Of a stretch of 41,645 nt of DNA, positions 775 through 36,165 are shown one piece after another. A program made the position numbers and the translations under genes. The notes under the pieces were generated by a model, which saw nothing but the letters and a program-made list of their open reading frames with translations, was not told the origin of the DNA and did not search any database. Each line of letters begins with the position of its first letter. The first letter of the stretch is position 1. Source of the stretch: an uncultured Prevotellaceae bacterium (GTDB taxonomy: Bacteria; Bacteroidota; Bacteroidia; Bacteroidales; Muribaculaceae); the NCBI GenBank assembly GCA_900317835.1, contig ONIL01000026.1:1-41645 (forward strand). The letters are read 5' to 3'.

Positions 775-782
775 TAACTTGG
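775..782 (+). promoter_or_regulatory. Likely -7 promoter box for the 876 gene
   Basis: TAACTTGG at 775-782 is one base off TAnnTTTG and sits 14 nt before the structured leader, matching the position of the perfect TAACTTTG at 12022 in front of the related leader. The upstream AT stretch (AACAAATATTAAAATG, 726-741) also resembles that upstream of 12022. Confidence 0.4.
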
Positions 783-795
783 CTGCAAAAGATTA

Positions 796-863
796 AGAGC
801 CGCATTTGCGGGATTAACGGGTTCTTCCCTGATTGCAGCTCTGAAAATTGATTTATAGAACCC
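796..863 (+). ncRNA. Candidate structured 5'-leader (pseudoknot), copy 1
   Basis: Stem P1 is AGAGC (796-800) with GCTCT (838-842). A small hairpin CGC-ATTT-GCG lies at 801-810. GGGTTCT (819-825), inside the P1 loop, is complementary over seven bases to AGAACCC (857-863), giving a pseudoknot that ends 12 nt before the ATG at 876. The same plan with compensatory changes is seen at 12043-12107, and the strings TTAAC, GGTTCT, ATTTATAGAACC are shared. The layout suggests a cis-acting element controlling translation. I do not recognise it as a named riboswitch class. Confidence 0.6.
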
Positions 864-875
864 ACCATTATCAAT

Positions 876-1886
876 ATGAATAGATTCTTTACGCTTGCCG
901 CAGGTCTGATGATGCTTACTGCATCGGCCGAAACGCTGACGGTCTTCAGCGACGTTGAAAACACCAACATTTTAGTTCCTATCTCCATCGACATGCTCGA
1001 GGTAGCCAACTCTCGCTGCCAGATGCTCTATCCTGCCGATAAGCTCACTGCAATGAAAGATATGGATATCAAGTCAATCACGTTCTACACCGACGGCATG
1101 AGCACCTTGGAGGGTGGCGAGTTGACCATCTTGATGGGAGAGACCACTATGAGCGAGTTTGTGGATGATTTCGCTGAAGACTTGACCGTTGTTGGCACCA
1201 CCACAATACCGAGTGAGTGGTTGGATGATTATATCTGGGAAATGCCGATCCCGTTCACGACTCCCTACCACTACAATGGAGGGAACCTGGTGATTGAGGT
1301 CTTTACTACCACGCCCGGTTACGGTAGTCGGACCGAATTCCTAGGCGTTACAACCGATTATTCCTCTGCCTTGATAGATATTTATAACTACTCCTTCATG
1401 AGGGAGAGTTTCTTGCCCATGACAACCTTTGCCTATGAGGGCTCCTATAACCCCTTTGAGCCTACCGAGAAGACCGGTGCTCCCGTTTTCCGCGAATATA
1501 CCATCGACGGCATCGACGCCTATTTTGTAGAGATCCAGGAGGTCATGCCCAGCACCATCTACTACCGCATGAAACGCGGTCACGACGGCGAGCTCTCGGG
1601 CTGGACCGTCTATGAGGATGCCCTGAGTTTCACCGAGGACGGCTGGTACTACATTGAGGCTTACGCTGTTGCCGATGGCATGTTGCCCAGTGATCCCAGC
1701 GCTTGTGAGTTTACTGTCAGCCTTGACCCGAATACCGGCTTGGACGAGATGGCCACCAGCAAGCAGGTTGCCAGCGTGCGCTACTACAATACGACCGGCC
1801 AAGAGATGCAGCAGGCCAGCGGCTTGACCATCGTCGTTACCACCTTCACCGACGGCAGCACCACCGCTGTTAAAGTCGTTAAGTAA
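876..1886 (+). CDS. Secreted beta-rich surface protein with C-terminal sorting-like tail, function unknown
   Basis: 336 residues. Residues 1-18 (MNRFFTLAAGLMMLTASA) are a signal peptide. Residues ~30-170 resemble a beta-sandwich found in Bacteroidales surface proteins, with MLYPADKL, IKSITFYT, YHYNGGNLVIEVF and FLGVTT as landmarks. Residues ~205-285 form a second beta region resembling a chitobiase/FN3-type module (TIYYRMKRG... GWYYIEAYAVADG). The last ~40 residues (VASVRYYNTTGQEM ... GLTIVVTTFTDGSTTAVKVVK-like) resemble the C-terminal tail used for export and anchoring by type IX secretion in this phylum. It stands alone, with a structured leader upstream and two hairpins downstream. Domain calls are by eye; no enzymatic motif is visible. 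Confidence 0.8.
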   Translation: MNRFFTLAAGLMMLTASAETLTVFSDVENTNILVPISIDMLEVANSRCQMLYPADKLTAMKDMDIKSITFYTDGMSTLEGGELTILMGETTMSEFVDDFAEDLTVVGTTTIPSEWLDDYIWEMPIPFTTPYHYNGGNLVIEVFTTTPGYGSRTEFLGVTTDYSSALIDIYNYSFMRESFLPMTTFAYEGSYNPFEPTEKTGAPVFREYTIDGIDAYFVEIQEVMPSTIYYRMKRGHDGELSGWTVYEDALSFTEDGWYYIEAYAVADGMLPSDPSACEFTVSLDPNTGLDEMATSKQVASVRYYNTTGQEMQQASGLTIVVTTFTDGSTTAVKVVK

Positions 1887-12005: not shown

Positions 12006-12029
12006 TTTGCACTAAAAGATATAACTTTG
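12006..12029 (+). promoter_or_regulatory. Promoter of the BspA-like gene
   Basis: TAACTTTG at 12022-12029, with TTTG at 12006-12009 (12 nt gap). Start of transcription would fall just before the structured leader at 12043. Confidence 0.6.
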
Positions 12030-12042
12030 TAATATAAAGACG

Positions 12043-12107
12043 GGGCCTATTTGAGGGTTTAACAGGTTCTGCTCTCAATTTGGCTCGGAATAGTATTTAT
12101 AGAACCT
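12043..12107 (+). ncRNA. Candidate structured 5'-leader (pseudoknot), copy 2
   Basis: P1 is GGGCC (12043-12047) with GGCTC (12082-12086, one G-U pair), against AGAGC/GCTCT in copy 1. The hairpin alternative CCT-ATTTG-AGG lies at 12046-12056. AGGTTCT (12064-12070) pairs with AGAACCT (12101-12107); the outer pair changed from G-C to A-U compared with copy 1. It ends 15 nt before the ATG at 12123. These compensatory changes support a real RNA fold. Confidence 0.6.
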
Positions 12108-12122
12108 ACCTCATGAACCCAA

Positions 12123-14024
12123 ATGAAACATTACTTTACATTTCTCTCAGTCAGTTTGATGGCAATGTGTGCGCTGGCACAGTTGCAGTTTACTTCAGGT
12201 AAATTCAAGTATGAAGTGATTGAAGGTCTCGACAACGCCGTACAGATTATTCCCAAAAGCAATTCAGAGAGCGGGGCTGGCTACAGCAATCTTTTTTCCT
12301 CTGATTTCCATAGCACGGTGACTTATGACGGCGTGACCTATAATGTAGTGGGCATCGGCGCCAACGCGTTCTACAGGTGCACACTCAATGATCAAGCCAT
12401 CCTGCAGTTGCCCGAAGGCATCATCTTCATTGATGCGGGTGCCTTCTCCTACGCCGAGGTGGGCTCGTTGAAGATGCCCACGACCTTGAGGTTAATTGCC
12501 GAAACGGCATTCGCCAACAATAAATTTGGGGGAATGACCGTGCTGGCCGACAACCCCTATTTTGCACATTTGGTTTCGACGCAGGGTAACGTCACCTACA
12601 CCATGCTCACCAATAAGGAGAAGACCAAAATCATCGCCGCTCCCGGAGCCAAGCCCACGCAGTTCAGTTCCAGCGGCACTACCTATCTCACCTCAATCAC
12701 CATTCCCGAGCAAATCACCGAGATCGGCGATTATGCCTTCTATGGCAATCCCACGCTCAAGACGGTGAATTTCCATGCCGGCATCACACGCATCGGCATG
12801 GCCGCGTTCTATGAGACGCAGCTCACCCGGGTTAACATTCCCAACCCTGATTGTGAGATCGGCAATAGCTGCTTCAGCAACAGCCAAGTGGGCAGTGTTA
12901 CACTGCCTCAAGGCATGAAAAAGCTAGGACGCCACGTGTTCTTCTACTGTGTCAACCTCACCAGTCTCACCCTGCCCGAGGGTATGGAGGAAATCGGCAT
13001 GATGTGCTTTAGCAGCTGCAACCTCACTACCGTGAACCTGCCCAGCACGATGGTTAAGCTCGACAGTTGTGCGTTGCAGAGCAACCCGTTCACAAGCATC
13101 AACCTCAAGAATGTCAAGTACATTGGCCGCCAGGCCTTCAGCATGTGTTCCAACCTCACGTCAGTTACCAGCAACGGCAAGCTCGAAGAGATTGACGGAA
13201 CGGCCTTTACCCGCTGCCCCCTCACCACGGCCTATCTGCCCGAGGGTTTGCTCACCATCATCATGAATGCCTACTTCCGGTGCACCGACCTGAACTCATT
13301 CACCGTCCCCACGACAGTGACCACCATCACAGGTAACCCCTGCGTGGGAGCAACTTCGCTGAGGGCATTTAACGTGGCCGAGGGCAGTGAACATTTCGCC
13401 ACCTATGACGGCTGCCTCTATGCCACCGACGGTAACACAGTCAAGCCGAACCGTGCCGAGGGCGATGAGCCCGCAGGACTGACCGCCCTTGTGGGTGTGC
13501 CCACCGGCTGGCTGCAAAGCTTGCTTCATGTGCCCGAGGGCGTAACTGTCATTGCCAACCAGGCAGCACGTGAAGCGACTTCCATCACCGAGGTGGAATT
13601 ACCCTCGACAATGTCCGAAATTCGTCCCAGCGCCTTCAGCAGCATCACAGGCATCACCAGCGTGACCTGCCTTGCCGTCACACCGCCTATATTCACTGGC
13701 GAAACCGGCAACTACTTCACCGATGAGGTTTACCAAAACGCCACACTCTATGTGCCCATGCGCAGCCTGAGACTCTACATGGACGGGGAGGTATGGCGCA
13801 ATTTCCAGCACATCGAGGGTATTGATACCGGCGAGGATCCCCACCAGCCAGGTGATGTCAACCACGATGGCATCATTGCGATCAACGATGCGTCAATTTT
13901 GATCGATTACGTGCTGGATAACAGCAATGAAATCTGTACCACTTGTGCAGATGTCAATGGTGATACTTTTATCAATATTGCCGATGTGAGCGCTCTCATC
14001 GACAAAGTACTGAACAGCATGTAA
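12123..14024 (+). CDS. Secreted BspA-like leucine-rich-repeat protein with dockerin-like C-terminus
   Basis: 633 residues. Signal peptide 1-20 (MKHYFTFLSVSLMAMCALAQ). A short N-terminal beta part holds VTYDGVTYNVVGIGANAFYRC, the usual lead-in of BspA-type repeats. Residues ~70-540 are LRR_5 repeats of ~23 residues (SITIPEQITEIGDYAFYGN, TSLTLPEGMEEIGMMCF, VELPSTMSEIRPSAFSS). Residues ~572-633 hold two calcium-loop repeats (DVNHDGIIAINDASILIDYVL; DVNGDTFINIADVSALIDKVL), a dockerin-like end. BspA relatives bind host or matrix proteins; here the function is inferred only. It shares its leader RNA with the gene at 876 and is closed by a strong terminator. Confidence 0.88.
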   Translation: MKHYFTFLSVSLMAMCALAQLQFTSGKFKYEVIEGLDNAVQIIPKSNSESGAGYSNLFSSDFHSTVTYDGVTYNVVGIGANAFYRCTLNDQAILQLPEGIIFIDAGAFSYAEVGSLKMPTTLRLIAETAFANNKFGGMTVLADNPYFAHLVSTQGNVTYTMLTNKEKTKIIAAPGAKPTQFSSSGTTYLTSITIPEQITEIGDYAFYGNPTLKTVNFHAGITRIGMAAFYETQLTRVNIPNPDCEIGNSCFSNSQVGSVTLPQGMKKLGRHVFFYCVNLTSLTLPEGMEEIGMMCFSSCNLTTVNLPSTMVKLDSCALQSNPFTSINLKNVKYIGRQAFSMCSNLTSVTSNGKLEEIDGTAFTRCPLTTAYLPEGLLTIIMNAYFRCTDLNSFTVPTTVTTITGNPCVGATSLRAFNVAEGSEHFATYDGCLYATDGNTVKPNRAEGDEPAGLTALVGVPTGWLQSLLHVPEGVTVIANQAAREATSITEVELPSTMSEIRPSAFSSITGITSVTCLAVTPPIFTGETGNYFTDEVYQNATLYVPMRSLRLYMDGEVWRNFQHIEGIDTGEDPHQPGDVNHDGIIAINDASILIDYVLDNSNEICTTCADVNGDTFINIADVSALIDKVLNSM

Positions 14025-23706: not shown

Positions 23707-24077
23707 ACAGTATGGCGGCTTGTCGCTCGTTAACTCATGGTTGCGAGAGGAAAGTCCGGGCAACACAGAGCGTCACATTTCTTAACGGGAAGCTACGGGT
23801 GACCGTAGGGTTAAAGTGACAGAAAACAACCGCCACGTCCTCACGTGTGAGGACTACGGTAAGGGTGAAAAGGTGGGGTAAGAGCCCACCGGGCGCTGTG
23901 GTGACACAGTGTGCCGCACCACCTGTGAGTTGCAAGTTCATGTATACCGGCATCTAAGGGCTGCTCGTCCATTGCCGGGGGGTAGAACGCTATACCGACA
24001 CAGCAATGTGCCGGACAGATAAATGACAGGCACCTGCCGTCATGGCAGGCACAAAACCCGGCTTACAGCCATACTGT
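23707..24077 (+). ncRNA. rnpB: RNase P RNA (class A)
   Basis: Catalytic RNA that removes the 5' leader of tRNA precursors. The ends pair exactly: ACAGTATGGC (23707-23716) with GCCATACTGT (24068-24077). The conserved core GAGGAAAGTCCGGGC is at about 23748, the matching 3' core (GGGGGGTAGAACGCTATACCGAC, split by loops) is near 23977, and the P4 strand ACAAAACCCGGCTTA is near the end. A run of Ts at 24078-24085 terminates it. Length of ~370 nt fits class A. It lies between DUF4153 and folC. Confidence 0.96.
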
Positions 24078-24135
24078 CTTTTTTTATATTGAAACGACGT
24101 CACGTGAGTGACAAACATAGTTAGACTAAACCATT

Positions 24136-35904: not shown

Positions 35905-35976
35905 GGACCCGTAGTTCAATGGATAGAATAAAGGATTCCGGTTCCTTCGATTGGGGTTCGACTCCCCACGGGTTCA
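35905..35976 (+). tRNA. tRNA-Arg (anticodon CCG)
   Basis: 72 nt, CCA not encoded. Acceptor stem GGACCCG/CGGGTTC (one G-U) with discriminator A. D arm TAGTTCAATGGATAGAA. Anticodon stem AAGGA/TCCTT with loop TTCCGGT, anticodon CCG. T arm TGGGG-TTCGACT-CCCCA, perfect. It marks the boundary between host-like sequence and the AT-rich accessory region to the right. Confidence 0.95.
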
Positions 35977-36165
35977 CTTTATTTTCTTTCATCTCCATAT
36001 CCATCCCCATATAATTGGCCATTATTCATCCTATGCTAGGTGTTATCTTGTTAAAATGAACAGATAGTAGGTTGTTGTTATGAACATAGGCACGAAGTTA
36101 TTAGCAGAGATGCAGAAGTTTTGAACACTTTGAAACAAGTGATATCAATATGAAGAAAAATGTTG

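Follow-up and report, generated by a model that had tools for sequence, protein, structure and literature searches.

We describe a family of small pseudoknotted RNAs, two members of which lead into genes for predicted secreted proteins in a 41,645-nucleotide (nt) stretch of DNA (the window) from an uncultured Prevotellaceae bacterium, placed by GTDB in the Muribaculaceae of the phylum Bacteroidota (contig ONIL01000026.1 of assembly GCA_900317835.1). Leaders 1 and 2 of the window are members of one real RNA family, and the leaders of this family are almost certainly homologous to the right ends of insertion sequences (IS) of the IS5 family akin to IS1168 and IS1169. On balance we favor the view that they go back to a cis-acting RNA module that was part of such right ends and was exapted as an element of the 5' untranslated region (5' UTR) acting at the start of translation. 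A preliminary description of the two leaders, made from the sequence alone, had recognized a cis-regulatory RNA; what it missed is that the motif is the right end of an IS5-family element, and for this reason lies scattered ahead of unrelated genes.

The fold of the window leaders is an H-type pseudoknot, consisting of a hairpin stem made up of the helices P1 and P2 and a second helix of 7 base pairs (bp) adjoining P2. RNAfold places a 12-nt loop, TTAACRGGTTCT, common to both leaders, atop P2, and the last seven bases of this loop pair with AGAACCY downstream, beyond P1. The first loop of the pseudoknot is the 5-nt TTAAC, while the third is about 14 nt long with ATTTAT at its end. Direct reading confirms the plan that had been proposed for both leaders, namely a P1 stem, a 7-bp pseudoknot, TTAAC together with ATTTATAGAACC in common, and an ATG 12-15 nt off; the start codons lie at 876 (12 nt after the pseudoknot 3' strand of leader 1) and at 12123 (15 nt after that of leader 2). 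The small hairpin of that plan is likewise present, with the correction that the conserved one is P2 closing the 12-nt loop, and not the CGCATTTGCG hairpin that can be drawn in leader 1. The minimum free energy (MFE) z-scores from RNAfold are unremarkable for the full leaders (-1.15 for leader 1, -0.31 for leader 2), those of the leader cores being -1.80 and -4.39, respectively; hence, the case for structure rests on comparison.

Searches of the whole window with Rfam 15 returned only RNase P and a tRNA, and at relaxed settings the best score in the region of leader 1 was 15.6 bits against a cut-off of 45, with nothing up to E 5 in that of leader 2. A strict pattern recovered, among 61 genomes, the two window copies and one copy each in two other genomes. 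A model built from 3 sequences (R1) matched in 33 of the 61 genomes of the window's genus (E <=0.5) and in 10 of 149 genomes of the family (E 0.1), while a model built from 43 matches (R2) found the motif in 73 of 397 family genomes, covering 12 of 30 genera (E 0.01), and in 18 of 393 genomes of the order, covering 16 of 207 genera (E 0.003). In the phylum search 2 of 395 genomes matched, the window's own included. The window genome itself has three strong copies, two in the window and one on contig C44, plus two weak matches at about E 0.6. Thus, of the two outcomes named beforehand as counting against the proposal, a lack of further leaders in related genomes and an Rfam hit, neither was observed, and the element still answers to no named Rfam class. 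A single-pattern scan matched contigs titled as Muribaculaceae, Prevotellaceae, Lentimicrobiaceae and metagenome-assembled Bacteroidales genomes, several of them from rumen, horse faeces and deer colon; among its 39 stretches, those in unrelated phyla look like chance. The 3 matches from a scan of viral contigs are near-identical to each other and by eye not motif-like.

Pairing is kept in these copies despite changes of the bases, as had been claimed for the two window leaders. In a MAFFT alignment of 43 copies (A5) 84.5% of the cells pair and 16 of the 21 pairs show double changes, values equalled by none of 500 shuffles. Removed beforehand from this alignment were L041, apparently a chance hit, L023b, L041b, L048b, and L008 and L028, both near-duplicates; it retains five copies from other genera (L037-L040 among them), none of them proven to be IS-borne. 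A model-fitted alignment (A7) of 80 rows from 77 of 102 loci gave 86.5% pairing with double changes at 17 of 21 pairs, again with 0 of 500 shuffles reaching this, and shifting the partner by one column lowers pairing to 50-56%; A7 excludes 25 loci, among them most copies of genome G005, two of its rows are cut off at the end of a stretch and one locus supplies two or more rows. A7 was fitted to P1 and P2 and not to the pseudoknot columns, in which 98.5% of the cells are paired and 4 of the 7 pairs show double changes; in the set of IS and other-genus copies considered below, A-U and G-C exchange 14:9 at one pair. These columns, which were not modelled as pairs, contain 46 G-U cells versus a single A-C. 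As an A-C on the mRNA strand is a G-U on the opposite strand, it is the mRNA strand that selection sees.

An alignment-free comparison gave -18.16 kcal/mol for the pairing of leaders with their own 3' arm versus -13.64 kcal/mol with the arms of other leaders (a difference reached in 0 of 5000 permutations); in 77 of 93 leaders the greater stability was on the mRNA strand (75 of 93 with slightly longer arms). The 93 are the leaders of the window's genus that remain when L008, L028, L037-L041, L052 and L087 are omitted from the 102 loci. All 7 pseudoknot pairs can form in 80 of them, versus 4.2 on average and at most 11 over 200 shuffles of the 3' part. Within the loop the bases A22, G26-T28 and T31 (leader 1 numbering in the alignment) are nearly invariant. 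Selection on the host leaders at the level of RNA is therefore well supported, and there is little doubt that they function at that level; together with the link to downstream genes described below, the covariation supports the earlier proposal of a cis-acting leader RNA.

The relationship to mobile elements emerges from other genera, in which near-identical copies of the motif are directly followed by different DNA. In genome G270 the order of the element is an IS5-family transposase (NF033581, 266.8 bits versus a cut-off of 140), a promoter box, the motif and TTCA; TTCA also stands ahead of the left end, which agrees with the right end, once inverted, in 14 of 20 bases. Of the named elements, IS1169 and IS1168, both from Bacteroides plasmids, come nearest to this one (transposases about 61% identical), and R2 matches the right ends of IS1168 with 38.0 bits (L175) and 36.1 bits (L176) and that of IS1169 with 29.3 bits (L174). 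Like the leaders, these elements have the pseudoknot, a TANNTTTG-like box ahead of it and the same ...ATAGAACYCACC end. A nim gene follows the IS end in L174 and L175, and the copies in genome G108 agree by eye with the IS1169 end of L174; IS1169 with nimD has been described on the plasmid from which L174 comes (PMC6927303). Near-full relatives of the transposase lie ahead of the motif in L209, L234 and L236, partial ones in L231 and L239, and 4 of 21 order-wide copies examined have a transposase match upstream. When 23 genomes were searched for the G270 transposase at E 1e-10 it was found only in its own, with no match in G000; a possible reason is the absence of repeat contigs from binned genomes. 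Two other accounts of these ends were set aside: a TnpB-type guide RNA, considered since the element ends at the knot with the flank following, because the gene adjacent in G270 encodes an IS5-family DDE transposase, and an assembly artefact for the copies at contig ends, because the same end is complete in the plasmid record L174.

Genome G005 further contains about two dozen short repeats resembling miniature inverted-repeat transposable elements (MITEs), in L075-L080 and on other contigs, which lack the knot and have their ends in common with the leaders. The six that were read are about 175 bp long, with 19-bp inverted ends, GGTGGGTTCTATAAATTGC, and perfect 4-bp target duplications in five of the six; their ends share 17 bases with L043 and 16 with leader 1, being identical to the last 16 bases of the latter. 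Given that IS ends and these repeats share the end of the leaders, the last strand of the pseudoknot falls within the terminal repeat of this IS group. Among the host loci, transposase fossils lie directly upstream on the same strand in L051 (a 23-residue transposase C-terminus, 74% identity) and L183 (32 residues, 69%). A site resembling the left end lies 485 nt upstream in L014, where no duplication matches it, and weaker sites of this kind occur in L022 and L126. The stretches surrounding the two window leaders gave no transposase match. As a separate observation, G108, which has the IS1169 copies, contains a CRISPR-like array (at about 1501 of L108), one spacer of which ends in GGTGAGTTCTATC, preceded by TTAT. 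When the right end of IS1169 is read inwards, its outermost 13 bases are the same as GGTGAGTTCTATC; this may be chance.

Promoters of the TTTG/TANNTTTG type, from which the -7 consensus is taken, are described in PMC9330008. An exact -7 box is present in 65 loci, and in 56 of these the motif follows it after 18-21 nt, so that the fold begins a few bases from the likely start of the transcript; the copy of leader 1 in genome G020 carries a TAACTTTG box. In the 93 leaders the box is exact in 54 and found in 59 if one change is allowed. Simple scans around both window leaders, from which Bacteroides promoters fall outside, gave neither sigma-70-type promoters nor intrinsic terminators. In 18 of the 102 loci a same-strand open reading frame (ORF) of at least 100 codons, in some cases perhaps a spurious frame, ends within 60 nt of the motif; 16 of these 18 lack an exact box, and 16 loci with such an ORF all keep the 7 pseudoknot pairs. 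In L057 the ORF is hflX (TIGR03156, 423 bits), ending 4 nt from the motif, which here stands behind hflX without the usual promoter. A leader with a gene for a secreted dockerin protein is found directly behind hflX in L057 and L180 and 262 nt later in L178, and the window genome has, in L045, another hflX-like tail ahead of the leader.

These observations bear on the idea that only DNA is at stake, i.e. that the conserved bases represent a transposase-binding end with an outward promoter and that the RNA fold is incidental. The location of the pseudoknot 3' strand within the terminal inverted repeat would be expected from it, as would the sharing of the last 16-17 bases with the G005 repeats. 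For the host leaders it is disfavoured and, in our view, highly improbable: P1 and P2 covary though they lie outside the repeat, the pseudoknots show G-U with almost no A-C, no box is present in the scanned stretch of 34 of the 93 leaders, 30 of which keep the full helix (L193, one of the 34, has a box nearer the motif), and the fold is kept ahead of orthologues with no transposase nearby.

The genes behind the leaders are linked mainly by export. By a simple rule, and not by SignalP, signal peptides are predicted for 74 of 82 ORFs starting within 40 nt of a leader versus 20 of 131 other ORFs of the same loci; orthologues inflate the former count, which becomes 15 of 19 when counted by hand per protein cluster. 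The downstream proteins form 32 clusters; among the exceptions to export are an acyltransferase, a glycosyltransferase and a family lacking any Pfam match. Hence, control of surface proteins, as suggested in the preliminary description, accommodates most of the downstream proteins and leaves these exceptions aside. The placement of the window leaders before unrelated secreted-protein genes stood up, in that both products have a signal peptide by the same rule, the one behind leader 1 having no Pfam match versus LRR_5 and Dockerin_1 in the one behind leader 2, and the two look unrelated to each other. From the end of the motif to the ATG the median is 13 nt, with 4-31 nt in 82 of 99 copies. An orthologue of the BspA-type protein with at least 78% identity occurs in 8 of the 61 genus genomes, and the leader is ahead of the gene in all 8; four further genomes have distant BspA relatives (38-59% identity). 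Across 15 BspA orthologues the mean pairwise identity is 0.77 in the motif, 0.60 in the promoter stretch, 0.30-0.40 farther upstream; over the first 48 bases of the coding sequence it is 0.72.

A rival interpretation of this gene set is a ligand- or protein-responsive switch, in which the pseudoknot would bind a metabolite or an RNA-binding protein and so regulate a regulon of exported proteins. Dozens of leaders in one genus, mostly on genes for exported proteins, and the near-invariance of some loop bases are compatible with this, and several translational riboswitches, such as SAM-II and preQ1, likewise have compact H-type folds close upstream of start codons. We nevertheless regard such a switch as unlikely. 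The downstream genes share export and no common pathway, on account of which the metabolite riboswitch, raised as a possibility in the preliminary description, was dropped as first choice. The stem and third-loop sequences vary, and the IS-borne copies precede varied flanks, where control by a host ligand makes little sense. The sole alternative pairing considered, GGG/CCC, is by eye not conserved, the P2 variants of L031, L037 and IS1169 being unable to form it. Unlike SAM-II and preQ1, moreover, the leaders have no Rfam match, no link to a pathway and no evidence of a ligand, and are probably of mobile origin.

The right-end module of the IS comprises a TANNTTTG-like outward promoter, a short 5' end and the H-type pseudoknot, the last strand of which is the terminal inverted repeat. 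Under the exaptation we favor, decay of the IS and gene duplication may have left the module ahead of host genes, mostly for exported proteins, where selection would have kept it; it works as an RNA and not merely as a promoter. In most copies the P1/P2 hairpin and the pseudoknot helix come to an end some 12-30 nt ahead of the AUG, where the landing site of the ribosome has its edge, and the fold could tune the ribosome start either by leaving the start region unpaired or by restricting access; it perhaps also protects the 5' end against decay. The tight spacing to the AUG, the persistence of the fold behind upstream genes and the lack of a terminator at the two window leaders give an effect on translation start an even to slightly better chance. 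A stabiliser of the mRNA 5' end, i.e. a knot near the transcript start that blocks decay with little role in translation, would suit the loci in which the exact box lies 18-21 nt before the motif. It appears improbable in view of the tight spacing to the ATG and of the loci with an ORF ending just upstream, mostly without an exact box, where the knot may be far from the 5' end.

The RNA may also matter to the IS itself: of 38 IS and other-genus copies, 30 are more stable on the outward strand. One possibility is an outward promoter serving the transposase in an excised circle, an idea put forward in general terms in PMC9330008. More tentatively, and less likely than not, a transposon-borne RNA exapted in one genus could have given rise to a post-transcriptional regulon of exported proteins that answers a common cellular signal, such as export load or ribosome state. 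If so, a mobile element would have supplied an RNA control system and not promoters alone. Insertion of an IS would, if the exaptation is right, deliver a ready-made 5' UTR besides transcription, which hosts retained ahead of exported proteins. The phylum scarcely uses Shine-Dalgarno pairing, and the leader provides a way of testing how translation begins there.

Several observations weigh against exaptation from an IS end, or against a uniform role at the start codon. Many loci are orthologous, so that the counts of cells and loci are not independent. In the IS and other-genus set (A6, 25 rows, at least two of them partial or doubtful) 79.3% of the cells are paired, a value reached by none of 500 shuffles, and 15 of 21 pairs show double changes, a number which 6 of the 500 do reach. 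Among the 22 IS and other-genus copies taken first, the bias towards the mRNA strand was weak (13 of 22), with G-U versus A-C counts of 37 versus 26 in the stems and 2 versus 0 in the pseudoknot. The 30 of 38 given above was obtained after adding 16 further copies, and this set, from which L222 was left out, includes other-genus copies without proven IS status; its pseudoknot count of 19 G-U versus 0 A-C is biased by a parse that prefers G-U over A-C, the 80-row column counts being unbiased. Further, transposase fossils are found in only two of the 102 loci, and no left-end-like site with up to 2 changes occurs upstream of the window leaders, in the case of leader 1 within the only 794 bases there are. 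Many genomes of the window's genus have no match at all, including the one-contig genome G084. Signal peptides are predicted for 12 of 28 window genes, above the background of 20 of 131; the distance to the chosen ATG is 36-203 nt for 13 of 99 copies, and two copies have no ORF in the following 180-203 bases.

The history could also have run in reverse, with the host leader coming first and being captured later by an IS5-family element. This would agree with the large number and the diversity of host leaders in the window's genus. Copies are however spread across many families of the order, those with an upstream transposase among them, while host leaders are found mainly in one genus, and two leaders retain same-strand transposase fossils upstream. 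Accordingly, we consider a late capture improbable and descent from IS end to host leader the likely direction.

Outward promoters are known from IS1168 and IS1169 of Bacteroides fragilis and from IS1186; according to PMC9330008, those of IS1168 and IS1169 ("mobile promoters") drive nimA/nimB and nimD, and outward promoters at IS ends are switches of resistance genes in Bacteroides. Unlike these elements, the window copies have no nearby transposase or found left end and precede secreted-protein genes common to other species of the genus, and host leaders evolve by wobble changes on the RNA strand. Matus-Garcia et al. (cited in PMC9208149) reportedly described, in 2012, putative mobile promoters, small promoter-bearing pieces ahead of unrelated genes; the leaders would resemble these in having spread as such pieces, and differ in that conservation resides in the RNA downstream of the promoter, which persists even where no box is visible. 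The Transposase-resistance motif of Weinberg et al. 2010, the name of which suggests transposase or resistance genes nearby, is listed as cis-regulatory and in several phyla, with no Rfam accession in its table row (PMC2864571); judged by this row, it may or may not be the same element. A literature search found no structured RNA at these IS ends, which is weak evidence of absence given that subscription journals were largely outside its coverage.

Table. Features of the two leaders and the genes behind them in the window (all on the + strand)
Feature	Position	Strand	Details and basis
Leader 1 -7 promoter box TAACTTGG	775..782	+	One change from TANNTTTG; sequence read
Leader 1 pseudoknot RNA motif	795..866	+	R2 model match 76.7 bits, E 2.8e-15 per genome; copy in training set
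Leader 1 P1 5' strand AGAGC	796..800	+	Partner GCTCT 838-842; sequence read, RNAfold
Leader 1 P2 5' strand GGGA	810..813	+	Partner TCCC 826-829; RNAfold; helix covariation
Leader 1 P2 12-nt loop	814-825	+	RNAfold
Leader 1 pseudoknot 5' strand GGGTTCT	819..825	+	Sequence read, covariation
Leader 1 pseudoknot 3' strand AGAACCC	857..863	+	Within region equal to terminal inverted repeat of IS and G005 repeats
336-aa secreted protein behind leader 1	876..1886	+	No Pfam match; signal peptide by simple rule
Leader 2 -7 promoter box TAACTTTG	12022..12029	+	Sequence read
Leader 2 pseudoknot RNA motif	12040..12110	+	R2 model match 73.5 bits, E 1.6e-14 per genome; copy in training set
Leader 2 P1 5' strand GGGCC	12043..12047	+	Partner GGCTC 12082-12086; sequence read, RNAfold
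Leader 2 P2 5' strand TTGAGGGT	12051..12058	+	Partner GCTCTCAA 12071-12078; RNAfold
Leader 2 P2 12-nt loop	12059-12070	+	RNAfold
Leader 2 pseudoknot 5' strand AGGTTCT	12064..12070	+	Sequence read, covariation
Leader 2 pseudoknot 3' strand AGAACCT	12101..12107	+	Sequence read, covariation
633-aa secreted BspA-type LRR_5 + Dockerin_1 protein behind leader 2	12123..14024	+	Pfam; signal peptide by simple rule

Leader 1 and its gene are flanked by the two copies of a 170-nt direct repeat (400-569 and 2162-2331 of the window, 95% identical), and this unit of leader and gene may derive from a duplication. A minus-strand gene, glycoside hydrolase-like by eye from its counterpart in G020, has the first repeat copy as its 5' end. 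Two leaders lie close together in genomes G067 and G075. Elsewhere in the window are an ordinary class A RNase P RNA (23707-24081) and an equally ordinary tRNA-Arg (35905-35977).
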